Assembly: GCF_003258295.1 (NCBI RefSeq)
Contig: NZ_QKYN01000029.1
Location: 1-64,000, forward strand
Source of the DNA: Streptacidiphilus pinicola
GTDB taxonomy: Bacteria > Actinomycetota > Actinomycetes > Streptomycetales > Streptomycetaceae
Direction of reading: 5' to 3'
Length of the DNA: 64,000 bases
Notes under the pieces: generated by a model
What the model was told of the DNA's origin: nothing
The model's input: only the letters and a program-made list of their open reading frames with translations
Database searches by the model: none
Made by a program: the position numbers and the translations under genes
Part shown: one piece after another, positions 39,900 to 55,469 of the stretch
Numbering within the stretch: position 1 is the stretch's first letter
Layout of the letters: each line of letters starts with the position of its first letter

Positions 39900-41225
39900 T
39901 CAGCCCGCGTTCAGGTCGGCCAGGATGGTGGTCTGCGCCGTGGTGAGCGAGGCCGTGGCGTCCTTGCCGGTGGCGATGGCGCTCAGCGCGTTCTGCAGCG
40001 CGACCTCGTCGGAGGCCTGGCTCCAGTACGGGCTGTTCGGGATGAACCAGGTCTTGCCGAGGGCGGCGTCACCGGTGGCCTTGTTGGCCGGGGCGGCCGC
40101 CTCGTAGGCGGGGACCAGGGTCTTGTTGTTCGGGATGGCGAACTTGGCGAGCGCGGTCTGCTGCGCGGTGTTGGTGAAGATGCGCAGGAACTCGGCGCCG
40201 AGGCCCGGGTTGGCGGCGTGGCTCGGGACCGCCAGGTCGGAGCCGCCGAGGAAGGCCGGGGTCGGGGTGCCGGCCGCGGTGCCCGGGACCGGGACCTCGC
40301 CGAGGACGTTGGCCAGCGCCGGGTTGCCGCCGGTGGCCGCCGGGCCGCCGACGGTGCCGGCCTCCCAGCCGTTGCCGACGATGGCCGCGATGTTGCCCTT
40401 GGCCATCAGGGCGTCCTGGTTGTTCTCGTTGACCGTCTGCCCGCCGACCGAGTAGTTCTTCTGCAGGTCGGCCCAGGTCTGGACGCCCTTGATGAAGTTC
40501 GGGTCGGTCAGCGTGCCGCTCCACTTGCCGCCGGAGCTCTTGGCGATGATGCCGGAGGTGCCGTAGTCGCCGGCTCCGAAGGAGAGCGCGGTGTACCAGT
40601 CCATGCCCGGCAGGTAGAGCGCCGAGAAGTTCGGGTTGGAGGCGTTCTTCGCCTTGACCTTGTCCAGGTCGGCCTTCAGCTCGTCCAGGGTGGTCGGCGG
40701 GGTGGTGACACCGGCGGCGGCGAAGAGGTCCTTGCGGTAGATCAGCACGCGGGAGCCCGCGTAGTAGGGGATCGCGTAGGTCTTGGTGCCGTCGCCGTTC
40801 TCGCCGGAGGCGGCGAGGGAGTCGAGCCAGGACGAGGAGTTGTCGAACTTGTCCTTGACCGAGGTCAGGTCGACGAAGGAGCCGGCCGCGATGTACTTGG
40901 CGGTCTGGGTGTTGCCCAGCTCCAGCGCGTCGGGGGCGTTGCCGGAGAGCAGGGCCGTGTCCAGCTTGGTGCTGTAGTTCGGCCAGTTCTGCCACTCGAT
41001 GTTGACCTTGGCGCCGGTCTCGTCCTGGAACTGCTTGACCGCCGCGTTGACCACACCGGGCCAGCCCTTCTGGGCGTCCTGCATGATCCAGACGGTGATG
41101 GTCTTGCCCTTGCCGTCCGTGGAGAGCGTGCCCTGGGAGGACGAGCCGGAGGTCGACGAAGAGGAGCAGGCAGCCACGGACAGTACGGTCGCCAGCGCGG
41201 CGGCTGCAGCGATCTTGCGCTTCAA
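39900..41225 (-). CDS. dasA: Amino-sugar-binding lipoprotein DasA
   Basis: The TTG at 41225 is the start, because AGGAGGAA lies 6 bases upstream. The 441-residue protein has a lipoprotein signal: MKRKIAAAAALATVLSVAAC with Cys20. The binding-protein fold of family 1 follows (ITVWIMQDAQKGWPGVVNAAVKQF, DALELGNTQTAKYIAAG, IPYYAGSRVLIYRKDLF, FLGGSDLAVPSHAANPG). It delivers chitobiose or N-acetylglucosamine oligomers to DasBC. dre operators lie about 130-170 bases upstream. Confidence 0.93.
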   Translation of the reverse strand: MKRKIAAAAALATVLSVAACSSSSTSGSSSQGTLSTDGKGKTITVWIMQDAQKGWPGVVNAAVKQFQDETGAKVNIEWQNWPNYSTKLDTALLSGNAPDALELGNTQTAKYIAAGSFVDLTSVKDKFDNSSSWLDSLAASGENGDGTKTYAIPYYAGSRVLIYRKDLFAAAGVTTPPTTLDELKADLDKVKAKNASNPNFSALYLPGMDWYTALSFGAGDYGTSGIIAKSSGGKWSGTLTDPNFIKGVQTWADLQKNYSVGGQTVNENNQDALMAKGNIAAIVGNGWEAGTVGGPAATGGNPALANVLGEVPVPGTAAGTPTPAFLGGSDLAVPSHAANPGLGAEFLRIFTNTAQQTALAKFAIPNNKTLVPAYEAAAPANKATGDAALGKTWFIPNSPYWSQASDEVALQNALSAIATGKDATASLTTAQTTILADLNAG

Positions 41226-41354
41226 AACTTCCTCCTGAGGGAGAAGCGTGGGTGGCACCGGCTGTTCTCGGAGGCGTTCCGATGCTTGACCGTGCCGGAA
41301 GTGGGGGTGCTCAATGGGAGGCGCCAGCGCCCAACGCTCCGACGCAGCCACCTG

Positions 41355-41370
41355 ATTGGTGTAGACCAGT
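41355..41370. promoter_or_regulatory. DasR operator (dre), strong
   Basis: ATTGGTGTAGACCAGT agrees with the dre consensus ACTGGTCTAGACCAGT at 14 of 16 positions. It is in the divergent region of dasA and the second binding-protein gene. Confidence 0.85.
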
Positions 41371-41378
41371 GATCGGAG

Positions 41379-41394
41379 ATTGGCATGGACCAAT
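41379..41394. promoter_or_regulatory. DasR operator (dre), second copy
   Basis: ATTGGCATGGACCAAT has inverted arms (ATTGG/CCAAT) and 11 of 16 consensus matches, placed 24 bases from the first site (about two helical turns). Confidence 0.65.
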
Positions 41395-41494: not shown

Positions 41495-41660
41495 CCCCTG
41501 GGGAAAATCCCCCGAACCCGGCTTCATGCGGGCGAATTGGCTGCCGCATGACGGTCTCATAACGGCTCCTGGGAGAACGCGCCGCGACTCTTGACGGCTG
41601 CTTCCGGCCCCCGTGACACTCCCGCAATTGGTCGAGACCATTGGGGAGAGTGGTGCGAGC

Positions 41661-42947
41661 ATGAGACGAAGAGCTGTCGCTGTCGGGGTCTGTTCGGCCG
41701 TCGCCGCGCTCGGACTGAGCGCCTGCGGGCTGGTTCACGGGGGGTCGGGGCAGGGGAGTGCCTCGCCGACCAGTTGGGGCGGCCGGACGCTGGTGGTCTG
41801 GCTGATGAAGGGCGACGACCAGCAGGCCTGGATGACCGCCGTGCGCAGCGAGTTCGGCCGCGCCTACCCGGGCGCCAAGGTCGACTTCGAGGTCCAGGAC
41901 TGGAACGGGATCGAGCAGAAGGTCACCGACGCGTTGGCCCAGCTGAACCCGCCCGACGTCATCGACATCGGCAACACGCAGACCCCGTTCTACGCGGCCA
42001 ACGGCGGCCTGCTGCAGCTCACCCCGTACCTGGCCGAACTCGGCGCGAGCGGCTGGACGAAGTCCATGAACGCCTCGGCGGTCTTCCAGGGCAAGCAGTA
42101 CGCGGCGCCGTGGTACGCGGGCAACCGCGTGGTGATGTACAACAAGCTGCTCTGGAAGAAGGCCGGCCTCGGCGCCGCCCCGCAGACCCTGCAGGAGTGG
42201 GAGGACGACCTGGCCCGGCTGCAGAACACGGCCGGGGTCTCCTCCGCGCTGTGGCTGCCGGGTCAGAACTGGTACGCCTTCGACGGCTTCCTGCAGGACC
42301 AGGGCGCGCCGATCGTCCAGCGGGTCGACGGCGCCTGGGCGGGCGACCTGGAGAGCCCCGCCGGGCTGCGGGCCGCGGCGGTCTTCAAGAAGCTGCAGGC
42401 CTACGGCCACGCCCCGACGGACGGCACCGAGGCCGGTCAGGCGACGGTCTTCGCCAAGGGCGACGTCGGCTGCATGATCGCCATGGGGTACGAGGGTGCG
42501 CAGGTGACCGCGGCCAACCCGGGTCTGAACAACCAGATCGGCTGGTTCCCGATCCCCGGGGCCAAGGCCGGGCAGCCGGCCAAGACCTTCCTCGGCGGCT
42601 CGGACCTGACGATCTCGCAGAACACCGCGAACAAGGAACTGGCGGTGGGCTTCCTGAAGGTCGCGCTCGACGACGCGAACGAGGCCCTGATGGCCCGCTC
42701 CTCCGGCTTCCTGCCGAACCGGGCGAGCCTGTATCCCGCGCTGGCCGGCAACGCGTACGCGCAGGCGGCGGCCAAGTCCGTCCCCTATGCCGGCTACACG
42801 CCGCTGCTGCCCGGCTGGGGCAATGTCGAGACGACGCCGAACCCGGTGATCACCCTCTTCCTCACGCCGTATCTGAAGGGCAAGGACCCGGTCGTGGCGG
42901 CGCAGGCGGCGGACGCGGAGCTGACCCGGCGACTGGGCTGGAACTGA
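41661..42947 (+). CDS. Second DasA-like sugar-binding lipoprotein
   Basis: A 428-residue solute-binding lipoprotein transcribed away from dasA. The signal peptide ends at the lipobox LSAC (MRRRAVAVGVCSAVAALGLSAC, Cys22), which argues for ATG 41661 over a GTG at 41613. Conserved blocks correspond one to one with DasA: LVVWLMKGDDQQAWMTAV, DVIDIGNTQTPFYAANG, APWYAGNRVVMYNKLL, FLGGSDLTISQNTANKEL. It therefore probably binds a related amino sugar or oligosaccharide. It has no permease of its own here, so it may use DasBC. Control by the dre sites in the shared 435-base gap is inferred. Confidence 0.88.
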   Translation: MRRRAVAVGVCSAVAALGLSACGLVHGGSGQGSASPTSWGGRTLVVWLMKGDDQQAWMTAVRSEFGRAYPGAKVDFEVQDWNGIEQKVTDALAQLNPPDVIDIGNTQTPFYAANGGLLQLTPYLAELGASGWTKSMNASAVFQGKQYAAPWYAGNRVVMYNKLLWKKAGLGAAPQTLQEWEDDLARLQNTAGVSSALWLPGQNWYAFDGFLQDQGAPIVQRVDGAWAGDLESPAGLRAAAVFKKLQAYGHAPTDGTEAGQATVFAKGDVGCMIAMGYEGAQVTAANPGLNNQIGWFPIPGAKAGQPAKTFLGGSDLTISQNTANKELAVGFLKVALDDANEALMARSSGFLPNRASLYPALAGNAYAQAAAKSVPYAGYTPLLPGWGNVETTPNPVITLFLTPYLKGKDPVVAAQAADAELTRRLGWN

Positions 42948-43192: not shown

Positions 43193-43208
43193 CGTTGTCC
43201 AGACCAAT
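43193..43208. promoter_or_regulatory. Second dre-like operator before histidine kinase gene
   Basis: The 16 bases 43193-43208 (right half AGACCAAT) have 11 of 16 matches and start 19 bases after the first site. Together they suggest DasR-type control of the kinase gene or relate to the end of the das locus. Confidence 0.55.
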
Positions 43209-43296
43209 GGCGGAGGTATTCGCCAGGGGGCCACGGCCGGTTCCGGCCGTGGGGCGCCGGTCGGCCCGCCCGCCGCCGGACGGCTACCCTCGCCTC

Positions 43297-44757
43297 ATGC
43301 CTTCCCTGAACGAGCTGGTGCGCCACCACACCGCGCTGGAGCCCGCCGACGTGGAGTGGATCCACCTGCTGATCTCCGAATGGCAGCTGCTCTCGGACCT
43401 CTCCTTCGCCGACCTCGTGCTCTGGGTTCCGACCCGGGACGGCACCCGCTACGTCTCCCTGGCCCAGATGCGGCCCAACACCGGACCCACCTCCTACCAG
43501 GACGACATGGTCGGCCACCTGGTGCCGCGCGGCCGCAGGCCGCTGCTGGACATGGCGCTCGACGAGGGCCGGATCGTCCGCGAGGGTGATCCGGAGTGGC
43601 GCGAGGACGTACCCGTTCGGGTGGAGTCGATCCCGGTGCGGCGCGAGGGGCGCATCCTCGGGGTGATCGCCCGCAACACCAACCTGCTGACCGTGCGCAC
43701 GCCGAGCCGGCTGGAGCTCACCTATCTGCAGAGCGCCTCCGACCTGGCCCAGATGATCGCCAACGGCACCTTCCCGTTCCCCGGCGAGCAGAGCGACATG
43801 GACGCCTCGCCGCGCGCCGGCGACGGACTGATCCGGCTCGACGCCGACGGCGTCGTCACCTACGCCAGCCCCAACGCGCTCTCCGCCTACCATCGCCTCG
43901 GCCTCTCCGCCGACCTGGTCGGGCTGAACCTCGGCCGGACCACCGCCGACCTGATCCCGCCCACCCGCGGCCCCGTCGACGAGGCCCTGGTCAAGCTCGC
44001 CAGCGGCTGGGCGCCGCGGCAGACCGAGATCGAGCATCCCGAGGCCGTCGTCCAGCTGCGCACCATCCCGCTCAAGCCCAAGGGCGAGACCGTCGGCTCA
44101 CTGGTGCTGCTGCGCGACGTCACCGAGCTGCGCCGCCGCGAGCGCGAGCTGATGACCAAGGACGCGACCATCCGGGAGATCCACCACCGGGTCAAGAACA
44201 ACCTGCAGACCGTCGCCGCGCTGCTGCGGCTGCAGTCCCGCCGGATGGACTCCGCGCCCGCCCGCGCCGCACTGGACGAGGCGGTCCGCCGGGTCGGCTC
44301 GATCGCCATCGTGCACGAGACGCTCTCCATGGCCCTGGACGAGACGGTCGCCTTCGACGAGATCGCCGACCGGGTGCTGGCCATGGTGATGGAGCTCTCC
44401 CAGGAGGGCCGGGTCACCGCCCGCCGTGACGGCAGCTTCGGCATCCTGTCCGCCGAGGTGGCCACCCCCCTGTCGATGATCCTCACCGAGGTCCTGCAGA
44501 ACGCGCTCGAGCACGCGTACGGCCCCAAGACCGGCGGTGTGGTGGAGGTCTCGGCCCGGCGCGAGGAGGGTGTGCTGCACATCACCGTCACTGACGACGG
44601 CTCAGGCCTGCCCGAGGGATTCGACCCGCAGACGGCCGGCAACCTCGGCCTGCAGATCGTCCGTACGCTGGCGGCGGGTGAGTTGGGCGGAAAGTTCGAT
44701 ATGCGCCCGGCGCCGAAGGGCGGGACACAGGTGCTGCTCGCCATCCCGTTCGACTGA
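43297..44757 (+). CDS. PdtaS-like sensor histidine kinase
   Basis: A 486-residue soluble kinase. The N-terminal domain (LVRHHTALEPADVEWIHLLISEWQLLSDLSFADLVLW) is a GAF-like sensor and is followed by a PAS domain (DGLIRLDADGVVTYASPNALS). The HisKA_2 phospho-acceptor helix EIHHRVKNNLQTVAALL has His at residues 296-297. The ATPase domain has N, G1 and G2 boxes (LTEVLQNALEHAY, TDDGSGLPEGFD, GNLGLQIVRTL). In mycobacteria PdtaS pairs with an ANTAR-type regulator that acts on RNA. ATG 43297 has no obvious ribosome binding site. It normally lies beside wblE; here the NRPS gene is inserted between them. Confidence 0.92.
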   Translation: MPSLNELVRHHTALEPADVEWIHLLISEWQLLSDLSFADLVLWVPTRDGTRYVSLAQMRPNTGPTSYQDDMVGHLVPRGRRPLLDMALDEGRIVREGDPEWREDVPVRVESIPVRREGRILGVIARNTNLLTVRTPSRLELTYLQSASDLAQMIANGTFPFPGEQSDMDASPRAGDGLIRLDADGVVTYASPNALSAYHRLGLSADLVGLNLGRTTADLIPPTRGPVDEALVKLASGWAPRQTEIEHPEAVVQLRTIPLKPKGETVGSLVLLRDVTELRRRERELMTKDATIREIHHRVKNNLQTVAALLRLQSRRMDSAPARAALDEAVRRVGSIAIVHETLSMALDETVAFDEIADRVLAMVMELSQEGRVTARRDGSFGILSAEVATPLSMILTEVLQNALEHAYGPKTGGVVEVSARREEGVLHITVTDDGSGLPEGFDPQTAGNLGLQIVRTLAAGELGGKFDMRPAPKGGTQVLLAIPFD

Positions 44758-44896
44758 CGGACAGGGCCCTTTTACCAGTTACTCACCCTGGTGACGACAA
44801 CCGCAGGGGATGCTGATTCGTCTACAGTCGCAGGCGCCCCAGAAGTCGGGCGGCGCCGCGCAGCACGACCCACCCAGACGCCGGACGAGAAACTAC

Positions 44897-47800
44897 GTGG
44901 ATCAACAGAACAACATCGCGCCGCCTCACCCCACCGCCTCCGGCATGGGCACCGTCATGGCACCCAGCTGGCAGCAGCAGGCCACGACCTGGCCGGGAGC
45001 GGTGTGGCCGACGGCCGACCCGGCCCCGGCACGGACGCTGCTGGACGTCCTCGACGAGACGGCCTGGCGCCACCCGGACGCCCCGGCCCTCGACACCGGC
45101 AGCGCCGTCCTCTCCTACCGGCAGCTGCTGAACGCCGTCGGCACCCTCGCGGCCGAGCTGGCGGGCTACGGCATCGGGCCCGGCGACCGCGTCGGCGTGC
45201 GCGTGCCCAGCGGCACCCCGGAGCTCTACCTGGCGATCCTCGGCGTGCTCCGCGCCGGCGCGGCCTACGTGCCCGTCGACGTGGACGACCCCGACGAGCG
45301 CGCCGAGATGATCTGGACCGACGCCGGCGTCTGCGCCATCATCGGCGCGGGACTGTCCGTCATGGCCGGCCCCAGCCCCACCGGCGGCGAGCCGGGCGCG
45401 GCCCGGATCACCGACGACGCGTGGATCATCTTCACCTCCGGCACCACCGGCCGCCCCAAGGGCGTCGCCGTCACCCACCGCAGCGCCGCCGCCTTCGTCG
45501 ACGCCGAGGCCCGGCTGTTCCTGCGGCAGGCCCCGCTCGGCCCTGGCGACCGGGTGCTGGCCGGCCTGTCCGTCGCCTTCGACGCCTCCTGCGAGGAGAT
45601 GTGGCTGGCCTGGCGCCACGGCGCCTGCCTGGTGCCCGCGCCCCGCTCGCTGGTCAAGGCCGGCACCGACCTCGGCCCGTGGCTGGTCGAACGCGGCATC
45701 ACCGTCGTCTCCACCGTGCCGACCCTGGTCGCCCTCTGGCCCGAGCAGGCACTGGACCGGGTGCGGCTGCTGATCGTCGGCGGCGAGGCCTGCCCGCCCG
45801 AGCTGGTGGAGCGCCTGGCCGTCTCCGGCCGCGAGTTCTGGAACACCTACGGCCCCACCGAGGCCACCGTCGTCGCCTGCGCCTCGCTGATGCGCGCGGG
45901 CGAGCCGGTCCGCATCGGCGCGCCGCTGGACGGCTGGGAGCTGGCCGTCGTCGGCCCCGACAACCGGCCCGTCCCCTGGGGCGAGGTCGGCGAGCTGGTG
46001 ATCGGCGGCGTCGGCACCGCCCGCTACCTCGACCCGGCCAAGGACACCGAGAAGTTCGGCGCGCAGCCCTGGCACGGGCGCCCCGAACGCGTCTACCGCA
46101 GCGGCGACCTGGTCCGCGCCGACCCGCGGGGCCTGATCTTCATGGGCCGCGCCGACGAGCAGGTCAAGCTCGGTGGCCGGCGCATCGAACTCGGCGAGGT
46201 CGACGCCGCGCTGCAGGCGCTGCCCGGCATCCGGGCCGCCGCCGCGGCGGTCAAGGAGACCCCGGCCGGCGGCCAGGTGCTGGTCGGCTACCTCGTCCCC
46301 GACGGCTCCGGCGAGCCCGACCTCGCGGCGCTGCGCACGCTCCTGCTGGACAAGCTTCCGCAGGCGCTGGTGCCGGTGCTGGCCGTCGTGTCCGAACTGC
46401 CCACCCGTACCTCGGGCAAGGTCGACCGCAAGGCGCTGCCCTGGCCGCTGCCCGGCGTCGGCGCCGAGGCCGCGGCCTCCGGCGGGCCGCTGCACGGCAC
46501 CGCCGCGTGGCTGGGGGAGCAGTGGCAGGCCGTCCTCGGCGTGCCGGTCGGAGCCGAGAGCGACTTCTTCGCGCTCGGCGGCACCAGCCTCGCCGCGGCC
46601 AAGCTGGTCTCGCTGCTGCGGCAGCGCTTCCCCGGCGCCTCCGTCGCCGACCTCTACCAGCAGCCGGTGCTGCAGACGCTCGCGAACCACCTCGACGGCG
46701 GCGCGGACGAATCCGTGGAGGTCCGCGAGGTCCGGCCGGTGCCGGCCTACGTCGGCCTCTACCAGGGGCTGGTGCTCGCCGTCCTCTACGCCGTGACCGG
46801 GCTGCGCTGGGTGCTGGCGCTGGCCGCGGTGGACAACCTCATAGGGCCGCTGCCCTGGGCTCCGCACACCTCCTGGGTGCTGGTGGTCGGTGGTTGGCTG
46901 CTGCTCTCCAGCGCCTTCGGCCGCTGCCTGATCGGCGCGATCGGGTCCCGGCTGCTGACAGCGGGTCTGAAGCCGGGCACGTACCGCCGCGGCGGCGCGG
47001 CCCACCTGCGGCTGTGGACCGCCGAGCGGCTGGTCGCCATGTTCAACGTGGCCGCCGTGATCGGCACCCCGCTCGCGCGTCGCTACGCCAAGCTGCTCGG
47101 CTGCCGCGTCGGCCGCGACGTCGAGCTGCACAGCATGCCGCCGGTCACCGGCATGGCCGTCTACGGCGACGGCTGCGCGGTGGAGACCGAGGTCGACACG
47201 GCCGGCTGGTGGCTCGACGGCGACGTGCTGCACCTGGGCACCATCCGGATCGGCAAGAACGCGCGCGTCGGTACCCGCACCATGCTGATGCCCGGCGCCG
47301 AGATCGGCTACGAGGCCGAGGTGCTGCCCGGCAGTTGCGTGCTGGGCCGCGTCCCGGCGCGCGCCCGCGTCCACGGCAGCCCCGCCGTGCCGGACGAGCG
47401 CCCGGTCCCGGAGAACGAGCTCTGGCCCGCGCCCGCGCACCGTCGTTCGCGCGCCTGGAGCCTGGCCTTCGCGCTGGCCCTGCCCGGCTTCCAGCTGCTG
47501 CCGCTGCTCTCGGCGCTGCCGGCCGTCGCGGTGCTCTGGCTGCTGATAGGGAAGGACCCCTCCTACTCCAGCATCTTCGACCGGATCCTGACCGCCTCGG
47601 TGCCCCTGGCCCTGGTCACGACGGCCCTCTACGCGCTGGCCGTGGTGGTCGCGGTCCGGCTGCTGTCGGTCCCGATCAAGCCGGGGCTGCACCCGGCCCA
47701 CGGCAGGGTCGGGTTCTGCGTCTGGGCCGTGCACAACCTGATGGCCTCCTCGCGGGTCACCCTGTTCCCGTTCTACGCCAGCCTGATGACCCCGGTCTGG

Positions 47801-48835
47801 CTGCGGCTGCTGGGCGCCCGGATCGGCCGCCGGGTCGAGGCCTCGACGGCGATCGGCCTGCCCGGAATGATGCGGGTCGACGACCACGCCTTCCTCGCGG
47901 ACGACACCATGGTCGGCTCCTTCGCCCTCGGCGGTGGCTGGCTGCGGCTCGGGGTCTCCTCGGTGGGCAAGCGCTCCTTCGTCGGCAACTCCGGCATCGT
48001 CGCCCCCGGGCGCGCGCTGCCGGACGACTCGCTCGTGGGCGTGCTCTCCGACGCCCCGCCGGACGCCGAGCCGGGCAGCTCCTGGCTGGGCCGCCCCGGC
48101 ATGCGGGTGCAGCGCGTCGTGGAGGGCGGCGAGGACACCGCCCGCACCTACGACCCGCCGCGCCGACTGGTATGGGCACGAGGGCTGGTGGAGCTGTGCC
48201 GGGTCATCCCGGTGCTGCTGACGGTGCTCCTCGGCGACCTGGCCGCCACCGGCCTGCAGGCGCTCTTCGACTGGGACGGGCTGACGATGTGTGCCGTCCT
48301 CGCCGGTGTGATGCTGCTCGCCCTCGGGGTGACGGCGTGTCTGATGACCACGCTGGCCAAGTGGTTGCTGATGGGCCGCTTCCGCGAGGGCCAGAAGCCG
48401 CTGTGGAGCGCGTTCGTGTGGCGCAACGAACTCTTCGACACCTTCGTCGAGGAGCTGGCCATGCCGTGGCTGGGCAGCACGCTGGTCGGCACGCCCTTCT
48501 TCACCCTGTGGCTGCGCAGCCTCGGCACCCGGATCGGCCGCGGAGTGTGGTGCGAGTCGCACTGGTTCCCCGAGACCGACCTGATCAGCATCGGCGACGG
48601 AGCCACCGTCAACCGCGGTGTGGTGGTGCAGACTCACCTCTTCCACGACCGGCTGATGCGGATGGACACGATCGAGATCGAGGCGGGCGCGACCATCGGC
48701 CCGCACTCCATCGTGCTGCTGGGCTCGACACTGGGGGAGGGGTCCGTGGTGGGCCCGTCCTCGCTGGTGATGCGCGGCGAGTCGGTGCCGGCGGGCAGCC
48801 GCTGGCTGGGCAACCCGGTGCGCCGCTGGGCGTAG
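44897..48835 (+). CDS. Pls/PosA-type NRPS (cationic homopolymer synthetase family)
   Basis: The 1312-residue protein (GTG 44897; ATG 44945 is an alternative) has one adenylation and one carrier domain fused to a membrane part. Adenylation motifs are WIIFTSGTTGRPKG (residues 175-188), NTYGPTEATV (about 315), YRSGDLV, GRADEQVKLGGRRIELGE and SGKVDRKALP (about 506). The carrier serine is in DFFALGGTSL near residue 561. From 600 to the end there are paired transmembrane helices alternating with three soluble segments, some hexapeptide-like (IGKNARVGTRTMLMPGAEIG). This order and length match epsilon-poly-L-lysine synthetase (1319 aa). No condensation or thioesterase domain of ordinary type is visible. 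The monomer cannot be assigned from sequence alone. A strong terminator follows. Confidence 0.92.
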   Translation: MDQQNNIAPPHPTASGMGTVMAPSWQQQATTWPGAVWPTADPAPARTLLDVLDETAWRHPDAPALDTGSAVLSYRQLLNAVGTLAAELAGYGIGPGDRVGVRVPSGTPELYLAILGVLRAGAAYVPVDVDDPDERAEMIWTDAGVCAIIGAGLSVMAGPSPTGGEPGAARITDDAWIIFTSGTTGRPKGVAVTHRSAAAFVDAEARLFLRQAPLGPGDRVLAGLSVAFDASCEEMWLAWRHGACLVPAPRSLVKAGTDLGPWLVERGITVVSTVPTLVALWPEQALDRVRLLIVGGEACPPELVERLAVSGREFWNTYGPTEATVVACASLMRAGEPVRIGAPLDGWELAVVGPDNRPVPWGEVGELVIGGVGTARYLDPAKDTEKFGAQPWHGRPERVYRSGDLVRADPRGLIFMGRADEQVKLGGRRIELGEVDAALQALPGIRAAAAAVKETPAGGQVLVGYLVPDGSGEPDLAALRTLLLDKLPQALVPVLAVVSELPTRTSGKVDRKALPWPLPGVGAEAAASGGPLHGTAAWLGEQWQAVLGVPVGAESDFFALGGTSLAAAKLVSLLRQRFPGASVADLYQQPVLQTLANHLDGGADESVEVREVRPVPAYVGLYQGLVLAVLYAVTGLRWVLALAAVDNLIGPLPWAPHTSWVLVVGGWLLLSSAFGRCLIGAIGSRLLTAGLKPGTYRRGGAAHLRLWTAERLVAMFNVAAVIGTPLARRYAKLLGCRVGRDVELHSMPPVTGMAVYGDGCAVETEVDTAGWWLDGDVLHLGTIRIGKNARVGTRTMLMPGAEIGYEAEVLPGSCVLGRVPARARVHGSPAVPDERPVPENELWPAPAHRRSRAWSLAFALALPGFQLLPLLSALPAVAVLWLLIGKDPSYSSIFDRILTASVPLALVTTALYALAVVVAVRLLSVPIKPGLHPAHGRVGFCVWAVHNLMASSRVTLFPFYASLMTPVWLRLLGARIGRRVEASTAIGLPGMMRVDDHAFLADDTMVGSFALGGGWLRLGVSSVGKRSFVGNSGIVAPGRALPDDSLVGVLSDAPPDAEPGSSWLGRPGMRVQRVVEGGEDTARTYDPPRRLVWARGLVELCRVIPVLLTVLLGDLAATGLQALFDWDGLTMCAVLAGVMLLALGVTACLMTTLAKWLLMGRFREGQKPLWSAFVWRNELFDTFVEELAMPWLGSTLVGTPFFTLWLRSLGTRIGRGVWCESHWFPETDLISIGDGATVNRGVVVQTHLFHDRLMRMDTIEIEAGATIGPHSIVLLGSTLGEGSVVGPSSLVMRGESVPAGSRWLGNPVRRWA

Positions 48836-48894
48836 GGGACAAGCAGGAGGGCCCCCGTCCGCGGTGCGGACGGGGGCCCTCCTGCTTGTCCCCG
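48835..48894. terminator. Very strong terminator after the NRPS gene
   Basis: A stem of about 28 bp with one bulged C (48841) and loop GGT starts at the stop codon of the NRPS gene. As it is nearly symmetrical it can also stop minus-strand transcripts arriving from wblE or the 6C RNA. Confidence 0.85.
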
Positions 48895-49188: not shown

Positions 49189-49440
49189 TCAGGCGGTGCG
49201 GGCACGGTTGCGGGCGGCGCGGCGCTTCATCGCACGACGCTCGTCCTCGCTCATGCCGCCCCAGACACCGGCGTCCTGGCCCGTCTCCAGCGCCCACTGG
49301 AGGCAGCTCTCCATGACCGGGCAGCGACGGCAGACGGCCTTCGCCTCCTCGATCTGGAGCAGCGCGGGCCCGGTGTTGCCGATGGGGAAGAAAAGCTCGG
49401 GGTCCTCTTCCCGGCAGACAGCGCGGTGGCGCCAGTCCAT
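49189..49440 (-). CDS. wblE: WhiB-family regulator WblE
   Basis: An 83-residue iron-sulfur cluster protein with the four ligands Cys9, Cys37, Cys40 and Cys46 (AVCRRCPVMESC), the GVWGG turn and a basic C-terminal tail (RRAMKRRAARNRARTA) for DNA contact. It is the WblE/WhiB1 type. The start MDWRHRAVC at ATG 49440 follows GAGGAG by 8 bases. WblE-type proteins bind the housekeeping sigma factor region 4 and respond to nitric oxide or oxidation. It is placed beside the kinase-NRPS block and above the 6C RNA. Confidence 0.95.
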   Translation of the reverse strand: MDWRHRAVCREEDPELFFPIGNTGPALLQIEEAKAVCRRCPVMESCLQWALETGQDAGVWGGMSEDERRAMKRRAARNRARTA

Positions 49441-49775
49441 CTTGTCCAACTCCTCTAAACGGCGGGGGTGTCCCACCAGCGTCAATGGCAGCTTGTGAAT
49501 GTGAACGCTTTCACGAACCCGATGGCAGGCACAGGGCCGACACGTGAGTCGGCGCACGGATGCTCGCGGCGTTGCGGGGTGGATTCGGGCGACTCAGGCG
49601 GTCTCCGTTACGGACCGTCCCGATCGCCATGTAAAGGTTCGCAAACCTCGACCCGGGATACAACCCCCTTCGGGTAGGAAATTTTGAATCGTCGGTGTCG
49701 CTTGGGTCACACCCTGTACTTCGATGGAGTGAAGCGGTGCGTGCGTTCGAGAACAAGGCCAAACGGCCCTCGCGT
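49441..49775 (-). other. wblE upstream region, no gene
   Basis: A 335-base gap between wblE and the lipid kinase gene. It has low-GC patches around 49480-49520 and 49670-49700 and must hold the wblE promoter. No credible ORF is present. Confidence 0.5.
49501..49514. promoter_or_regulatory. Inverted repeat upstream of wblE
   Basis: GTGAACGCTTTCAC has inverted arms GTGAA/TTCAC around CGCT, 61 bases before the wblE start. It is a candidate operator; the regulator is unknown. Confidence 0.35.
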
Positions 49776-53542: not shown

Positions 53543-53812
53543 TCAGACGAGCCGCTGGTCCTCGTAGCACCAGCGCCAGCTCTCGCCCGGTTCGTGGCTG
53601 CGCATGACGGCATGGCCGGTCTGCCGGTGGTGCTCGGTGGCCCAGCGCCCGGGGGTGGAGTCGCAGCAGCCGACGTGTCCGCAGTGCAGGCAGAGCCGCA
53701 GCGCGACGGGGCGCTGGCCCAGCTCCGCGCAGTGCCGGCACCCGTCCGTCACCGGCGCGGGCTCGGGGTCGGGCAGCTCGGCGAGGTGCGGGCAGGGGCG
53801 GGAAGGGGACAT
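53543..53812 (-). CDS. UBP-type zinc finger protein
   Basis: An 89-residue protein whose cysteines and histidines (CPHL, CRHC, LCLHCGHVGCCDSTPG, HHRQTGHAVMRS) match a UBP/ZnF-type fold that in eukaryotes binds ubiquitin. The end WRWCYEDQRLV is typical of the bacterial proteins. The ligand in bacteria is not established. ATG 53812 follows GGAGG. It is divergent from the antiporter gene. Confidence 0.88.
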   Translation of the reverse strand: MSPSRPCPHLAELPDPEPAPVTDGCRHCAELGQRPVALRLCLHCGHVGCCDSTPGRWATEHHRQTGHAVMRSHEPGESWRWCYEDQRLV

Positions 53813-53861
53813 GGCCTCCAGGGTACGGGGCGTGCCCCGTCACGTGTGGTTCTGTGACCCC

Positions 53862-55469
53862 ATGGCCATGAGCAGTCCCAGCGCCCTCTTCGTCTTGGTC
53901 GCGGGCTCCACCGCCGTCGCGGGGATCGCCCGCCGGTACCGGTTGTCCGCGCCGCTGCTCCTCGTGGTGGCCGGCCTGCTCGCCTCCGAGCTGCCCGGCG
54001 TGCCGGACTACTCGCTCGACCCGGCGGTCGTGCTGCCGCTGGTACTGCCGCCGCTGCTGTACACCTCGGCCCAGGAGGCCTCCTACACCAGCATCCGGGC
54101 CAACCTGCGCCCGGTGGTGCTGCTCTCCGTCGGCTACGTGCTGTTCAGCACCGTCGCGATGGGTCTGATCGCCCATGCGCTGATCCCCGGGATGCCGCTC
54201 GCCGTCGCGTTCGTGCTCGGTGCGGTCGTCGCCCCGCCCGACGCGGTGGCGGCCACCGCGATCGCGCGCCGGGTCGGGCTGCCCGCCCAACTGGTCTCCA
54301 TCCTGCAGGGCGAGAGCCTGGTCAACGACGCGACCGCGATCACCGCCTACCGGGTCGCGATCGCGGCGGCGGTGGGGGAGGGCTTCTCCTTCGGCAGCGC
54401 GGTCGGCGAGTTCCTGCTGGCCGCGCTGGGCGGGACCGCGGTCGGGCTGGTGCTGATGTGGCCGCTGCAGTGGCTGCGGGTGCGGCTCGGCGACCCACTG
54501 CTCAGCAACACCTTCTCGCTCCTCGTCCCGTTCGCCGCGTACGCGGCGGCGGAGGCCTTCCATGCCTCGGGCGTGATCGCGGTCGTGGTCGTCGGCCTCT
54601 ACCTGGGCCACTACGCGAACTGCGTCGACTTCGCGCTGCGGCTGCAGGAGGAGGCGGTCTGGCGGATGGTCTCGTTCGTCCTGGAGTCCGCGGTCTTCGC
54701 CCTGATCGGTCTGCAACTGCCGGTCGTGGTCCGGCAGTTGAACGGCTACTCGGTGGGCCGGCTGACGCTGTGGTCGGTGGTACTGCTGCTCGCGCTGATC
54801 GGGCTCCGCTTCGTCTGGTGCTGGCCGGCGACGTATCTGCCCAGCATGCTCAGCCGCCGTATCCGGGAACGCGAGGGGCGTCCTCCGTGGACGCGCCCCC
54901 TCGTCGTCGCCTGGGCCGGCATGCGCGGCGTCGTCTCACTGGCCGTGGCCTTCTCGATCCCCGAGACCACGCACGACGGAGCGCCGTTCCCGGAGCGGGA
55001 CCTGCTGCTGTTCCTGGTCTTCGCGTTGGTCATCGGCACGCTGCTGGTACAGGGCCTGACGCTGCCTTCGCTGGTGCGCCGGCTGCCGATCCCGGAGCGG
55101 GACCGGGCCGCGGAGACGCTGCGCGAGGCCCAGGCCCAGTACGAGGCCTCAACGGCGGCCGAGGCACGGCTGGACGAGCTGCTGCGGGATCCGCGCAACC
55201 GGGTCCCCGAGGTCCTGGAGTCCCGGCTGCGTCGCCTGCTGGACCGGCGGCGCAACGCCGTGTGGGAACGCATGGGCGCGCCGGTCCACGAGGAGACGGG
55301 GGAGTCGGTGGACTCCGCCTACCGGCGCCTGGCCCGCGAGGCCCTGGACGCGGAGCGCCGGGCGCTGGTCGCCCAGCGCGACACCGGCCGGGTCGACGAC
55401 GAGCTGCTGCGCAGGCTGGTGCGGCGACTGGACTTCGAGGAGGCGCTGATGGAGCACACCGAGGAGTGA
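53862..55469 (+). CDS. Na+/H+ antiporter (CPA1 family)
   Basis: The 535-residue protein has about 12 hydrophobic helices. The ion-binding Asp lies in VLGAVVAPPDAVAATAIA, followed by GESLVNDATAITAYRVAI (conserved Asn-Asp). Arg-rich helix segments are seen in AGMRGVVSLAVAFSIPE. The C-terminal cytoplasmic tail of about 100 residues is charged and helical (REAQAQYEASTAAEARLDELL...). ATG 53862 or ATG 53868 may be used; neither has a clear ribosome binding site. It probably exchanges sodium for protons for pH and salt tolerance. Confidence 0.9.
   Translation: MAMSSPSALFVLVAGSTAVAGIARRYRLSAPLLLVVAGLLASELPGVPDYSLDPAVVLPLVLPPLLYTSAQEASYTSIRANLRPVVLLSVGYVLFSTVAMGLIAHALIPGMPLAVAFVLGAVVAPPDAVAATAIARRVGLPAQLVSILQGESLVNDATAITAYRVAIAAAVGEGFSFGSAVGEFLLAALGGTAVGLVLMWPLQWLRVRLGDPLLSNTFSLLVPFAAYAAAEAFHASGVIAVVVVGLYLGHYANCVDFALRLQEEAVWRMVSFVLESAVFALIGLQLPVVVRQLNGYSVGRLTLWSVVLLLALIGLRFVWCWPATYLPSMLSRRIREREGRPPWTRPLVVAWAGMRGVVSLAVAFSIPETTHDGAPFPERDLLLFLVFALVIGTLLVQGLTLPSLVRRLPIPERDRAAETLREAQAQYEASTAAEARLDELLRDPRNRVPEVLESRLRRLLDRRRNAVWERMGAPVHEETGESVDSAYRRLAREALDAERRALVAQRDTGRVDDELLRRLVRRLDFEEALMEHTEE

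Follow-up and report, generated by a model that had tools for sequence, protein, structure and literature searches.

Epsilon-poly-L-lysine (epsilon-PL) is an antimicrobial polymer, and the reaction of its synthetase (Pls) is established in the literature (including PMC8117764 and PMC8506220): the amino acid is adenylated and loaded onto the carrier, and the membrane part then carries out the side-chain condensation. S. albulus makes epsilon-PL best at acid pH (PMC8506220), and its aminopeptidase PldII is coupled to pls (PMC9223678). Kitasatospora aureofaciens, which has two Pls homologues (L001 and L005), is a reported maker of short-chain epsilon-PL (PMC8506220). The Pls of C. variabile yields epsilon-PL once it is expressed in S. 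coelicolor from the pls promoter of S. albulus (PMC8117764) and is a more distant relative of the protein described below (51% identity). In this study, we analyzed a pls gene (44897..48835, forward strand) within a 64-kb stretch of Streptacidiphilus pinicola DNA (the window). The gene very probably encodes an epsilon-poly-L-lysine synthetase, and epsilon-PL is its predicted product because its adenylation code matches the code of the S. albulus enzyme at all ten positions and the protein is placed in the branch of S. albulus and K. aureofaciens. What stands out is a conventional Pls at an unusual, genus-specific position, without the usual peptidase, in an acidophilic genus of soil bacteria.

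The reading frame of pls is complete and uninterrupted and encodes 1312 amino acids from a GTG start. GTG 44897 is very probably the correct start because it is conserved in five orthologues, with the N-termini VDQQNNIAP, VDQENFIAP, and VEQQNFIAP. An ATG at 44810 was rejected as a start since N-terminal conservation sets in only at GTG 44897. The product matches TIGR02353, an NCBIfam model of the C-terminal region of the Pls/PosA family (cut-off 423.1 bits), with 669.1 bits over residues 623–1308 and profile positions 3–695 of 695. The match bears out the assignment to the Pls/PosA type made in a preliminary description of this DNA from sequence alone. The match to the adenylation model TIGR01733 also exceeds its cut-off. 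Pfam identified only AMP-binding, AMP-binding_C, PP-binding, and Hexapep in the product, which is a single adenylation-thiolation (A-T) module in which classical condensation and thioesterase domains are absent. The T domain (46508..46693, forward strand; residues 538–599) has a PP-binding match of 42.6 bits in Pfam, and its phosphopantetheine site was read in the translation as FFALGGTS. The translation contains the serine of the T domain as well as the A10 lysine.

The A domain (45053..46420, forward strand; residues about 53–508) consists of AMP-binding (residues 53–376) and AMP-binding_C (residues 434–508) in Pfam, and is 69.5% identical to that of S. albulus Pls (PDB 7WEW) over 492 residues. 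The residues of the ten-position specificity code were assigned by alignment to GrsA numbering. As a check on the numbering, the GrsA segment gave its own textbook code, DAWTIAAICK, with the last position on K517. The code of pls, DAESIGTVVK, is the same as that of 7WEW. Code position 2 sets the side-chain length; lysine enzymes have Ala there, PosA has Met, and the diaminopropionate and diaminobutyrate enzymes have Phe, and Asp and Glu are conserved at positions 1 and 3 across these enzymes (PMC10522769). In pls, positions 1, 2, and 3 are Asp, Ala, and Glu, respectively, and therefore lysine is predicted as the monomer; the lysine-type acidic pocket is present in the A domain. PosA, the delta-poly-L-ornithine synthetase of Acinetobacter baumannii, shares the family, the architecture, and the Asp and Glu at positions 1 and 3, but its code is DMEHNGTVSK (PMC10522769). 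DAESIGTVVK is present in 121 of the 123 family rows, a count that is not independent evidence and cannot separate subgroups because the rows were collected by similarity to pls.

A ten-residue code cannot tell L-lysine from close analogues with certainty. Enzymes for other diamino acids exist in the Pls/PosA family (PMC10522769), and contig C277 of the genome encodes a lysine 2,3-aminomutase-like protein, below the family cut-off. A less usual or new polymer, built from ornithine, diaminobutyrate, diaminopropionate, or beta-lysine, is nevertheless improbable, given that the code is that of the lysine enzyme and has Ala at the length-setting position, where PosA has Met and the diaminopropionate (PDAP) and diaminobutyrate (PDAB) enzymes have Phe. 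The aminomutase-like gene is unlinked to pls, and none of the scanned flanking genes (two solute-binding proteins, PdtaS, WhiB, diacylglycerol kinase, sigma factor, GNAT, and antiporter) belongs to a monomer pathway. L-Lysine is thus retained as the predicted monomer of pls. The preliminary description had left the monomer unnamed and had regarded this gene as the likeliest origin of a new secreted polymer in the window. Neither statement is supported; the code and the branch placement point to lysine and to an expected product that is already a known polymer.

Phylogenetic trees were constructed with FastTree (n = 108 rows) and IQ-TREE (n = 39 rows, with the other main branch as the root) from rows that included neither PDAP, PDAB, nor PosA sequences. 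A supported branch unites pls with the S. albulus-type Pls (L013), the A domain of which is 92% identical to 7WEW, and, nearer, with Kitasatospora copies including those of K. aureofaciens. Most copies within this branch, besides the S. albulus type, have no downstream peptidase, while the other main branch consists of pls-peptidase pairs from many actinobacteria. The S. albulus Pls has the same domain order, size, and code and is 58.5% identical to the protein over its full length (L013); it differs in that pldII lies directly downstream, whereas here there is none and the gene sits between PdtaS and whiB. The K. aureofaciens homologues are 65–67% identical over the full length, share the code and branch, and also have no linked peptidase, but they are located outside the PdtaS-wblE gap, elsewhere on the chromosome. 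Two Amycolatopsis pls copies (L073 and L077) form a long branch and are not accompanied by an M1 peptidase.

The membrane and C1-C2-C3 part (46727..48832, forward strand; residues 611–1312) was characterized with TIGR02353, an AlphaFold2 model, and Foldseek. The hydropathy peaks fall into three groups (residues 615–679, 853–931, and 1094–1159). The AlphaFold2 model of residues 611–1312 (mean pLDDT 85.3, pTM 0.88) has helix pairs interleaved with three left-handed beta-helix domains. Pfam, hydropathy, and the model agree on the order of A, T, and membrane part with three soluble segments, as originally proposed, and in the model the membrane helices separate the three soluble C domains. The nearest solved folds in Foldseek come from the hexapeptide acyltransferases, among them acetyltransferases of serine and of maltose, with modest scores and for single domains only (target TM-score of at most ~0.57 among the matches listed). 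In an alignment of 70 rows, C1 has the invariant histidine H135 and C3 has H637 and H640, and this count suggests C3 (QTHLFHDR) and C1 as candidate catalytic domains. The modelled fold and the histidines fit an acyltransferase-like condensation. Since related acyltransferases are trimers, a three-fold (pseudo-trimer) packing of C1–C3 is an attractive idea, which we do not claim here. In the proposed mechanism, the A domain would activate L-lysine with ATP and the T domain would hold it as a thioester. The membrane-embedded C1-C2-C3 part would then link lysines via their side-chain (epsilon) amino groups, and the resulting polycation, the chain of which may be short as in K. aureofaciens, would exit the cell.

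The upstream neighbor of pls is a PdtaS-type sensor histidine kinase gene (43195..44757, forward strand; GAF_PdtaS with 189 bits, HisKA_2, and HATPase_c in Pfam). Downstream and convergent lies a WhiB-family regulator gene (49189..49557, reverse strand; Pfam Whib, 98.4 bits), the wblE of the preliminary description, which is kept in the genus. The position between these two genes was thus described correctly. In other genera of Streptomycetaceae, PdtaS and wblE adjoin without pls in all loci (18/18, from 18 genomes), and the neighborhood is indeed otherwise conserved. Homologues of pls are found in 14 of 14 Streptacidiphilus genomes, and the PdtaS-pls-wblE arrangement is complete in 13 of them. 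In the remaining genome (G002), PdtaS is followed by a piece of pls that runs into the contig end. In another genome (G013), pls is split into frames, which is likely due to sequencing errors because that assembly is only 76% complete. The insertion of pls is old and is fixed across the genus at one chromosomal place. We rejected the reading that this one strain acquired pls recently, by insertion or by horizontal transfer, because the locus is genus-wide, and the term "inserted" in the preliminary description holds only on the genus scale, where the gene is absent from the same gap in the other genera compared.

A long perfect hairpin (48835..48894, forward strand) directly follows the stop codon of pls and lies in the gap that separates pls from the convergent whiB. 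Its folding energy is -70.7 kcal/mol, compared with -31.7 +/- 3.3 for shuffled sequences (z = -11.8), and in the DNA of the orthologues we read differing hairpin sequences at the same place. The T-run consensus terminator scan does not list this hairpin because it has no T-run. It is probably a transcription terminator of a kind without a T-run; of the terminator proposed for pls in the preliminary description, the stable structure is confirmed and its role is a matter of prediction. A sigma-70 promoter scan gave no match. Upstream of PdtaS, two divergent genes at 39900–41393 (reverse strand) and 41613–42947 (forward strand) encode extracellular solute-binding proteins that both belong to one family (PF01547/PF13416), and a sodium/hydrogen antiporter family gene is present near the pls locus at 53604–55469 (forward strand).

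The dN/dS of pls, estimated by a simple counting method, is 0.16–0.26 against five orthologues and 0.08–0.20 for the A domain alone, which shows purifying selection on the gene. Silence in culture is common among Pls genes, as in C. variabile, which itself made no epsilon-PL (PMC8117764), and the present genome has another pls. A silent or non-functional pls is the least probable reading, however, as the frame is intact, the motifs are present, dN/dS is well below 1, and the gene is kept in all 14 genomes of the genus.

Among the collected loci, the commonest gene after pls belongs to a single cluster of Peptidase_M1 proteins of about 430–520 residues. From their position and family, we infer that this cluster is of the PldII type. 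Such a peptidase stands beside 67 of the 80 named related pls loci, and of the 13 loci without it, two (L010 and L030) end too early to judge. No PldII-type match was found in the 64-kb window and none adjoins pls, consistent with the earlier remark that no degrading enzyme is seen next to the gene. We treat an adjoining pldII as a usual companion that the enzyme need not have in order to function. Contig C93 of the same genome carries a second pls (L111) with an M1 peptidase gene after it. Its product has the same code and architecture and is 55–57% identical, but it belongs to the other main branch, that of the pls-pldII pairs. Directly upstream of this second pls lies a large frame that reads as helicase-like and is not a polymer gene. 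The second pls and its PldII-type peptidase are present in 14 of 14 Streptacidiphilus genomes. A further M1 peptidase (L132, contig C58:35150–36445), 38% identical to the PldII-type protein on C93, is a candidate further polymer-degrading enzyme.

The fixation of the present locus in a genus that also carries a pls-pldII pair throughout raises the possibility that pls is a peptidase-less isozyme with a function other than bulk secretion. Its chains would perhaps be short and of low toxicity to the cell itself, and it would serve the envelope, development, or acid tolerance under joint regulation with PdtaS and WhiB. The nearest named relatives include the peptidase-less copies of K. aureofaciens, the reported short-chain producer. 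W646 and L883 of S. albulus Pls are known chain-length sites. With their numbering transferred from L013 at a one-residue offset, pls retains W at the W646 site and has Tyr at the L883 site. The Tyr would favor a specialized isozyme, but Leu at the L883 site also occurs in the K. aureofaciens copies, and the residue is therefore not predictive of chain length; a prediction from the two sites was dropped. Knock-outs of Pld and PldII left the chain length of S. albulus unchanged (PMC8506220), so that the missing peptidase alone says little about it. Adjacency to PdtaS and WhiB is not regulation. We consider such a specialized role possible but rather unlikely. A bolder form is more doubtful still, in which copies without a PldII-type peptidase, fixed in the PdtaS-wblE gap, would constitute a distinct class of Pls isozyme and a regulated, perhaps short-chain and acid-related, polycation system apart from the pls-pldII antibiotic pair.

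The preferred reading, an epsilon-poly-L-lysine synthetase of the conventional kind, replaces that of an unknown polymer with the prediction of epsilon-PL from an acidophilic genus, and no joint report of Streptacidiphilus and polylysine was found in the open literature searched. Streptacidiphilus lives at acid pH. Since S. albulus makes epsilon-PL best under such conditions and the genus has two pls genes, of which only one is accompanied by a peptidase, it is a natural setting for questions about the purpose of the polymer and about the reason for the usual pairing of pls with a peptidase. A third pls, also without a peptidase and outside the PdtaS-wblE gap, is present in some Streptacidiphilus genomes (L112, L113, L114, L124, and L121 in G007, G008, G009, G006, and G013, respectively). 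The third pls of G007 and that of G008 are followed by a gene of another cluster (cluster 2), by sequence an ABC ATP-binding protein. Cluster-2 genes also adjoin pls in S. hygroscopicus ATCC 21589 (L020) and strain TP-A0356 (L016).
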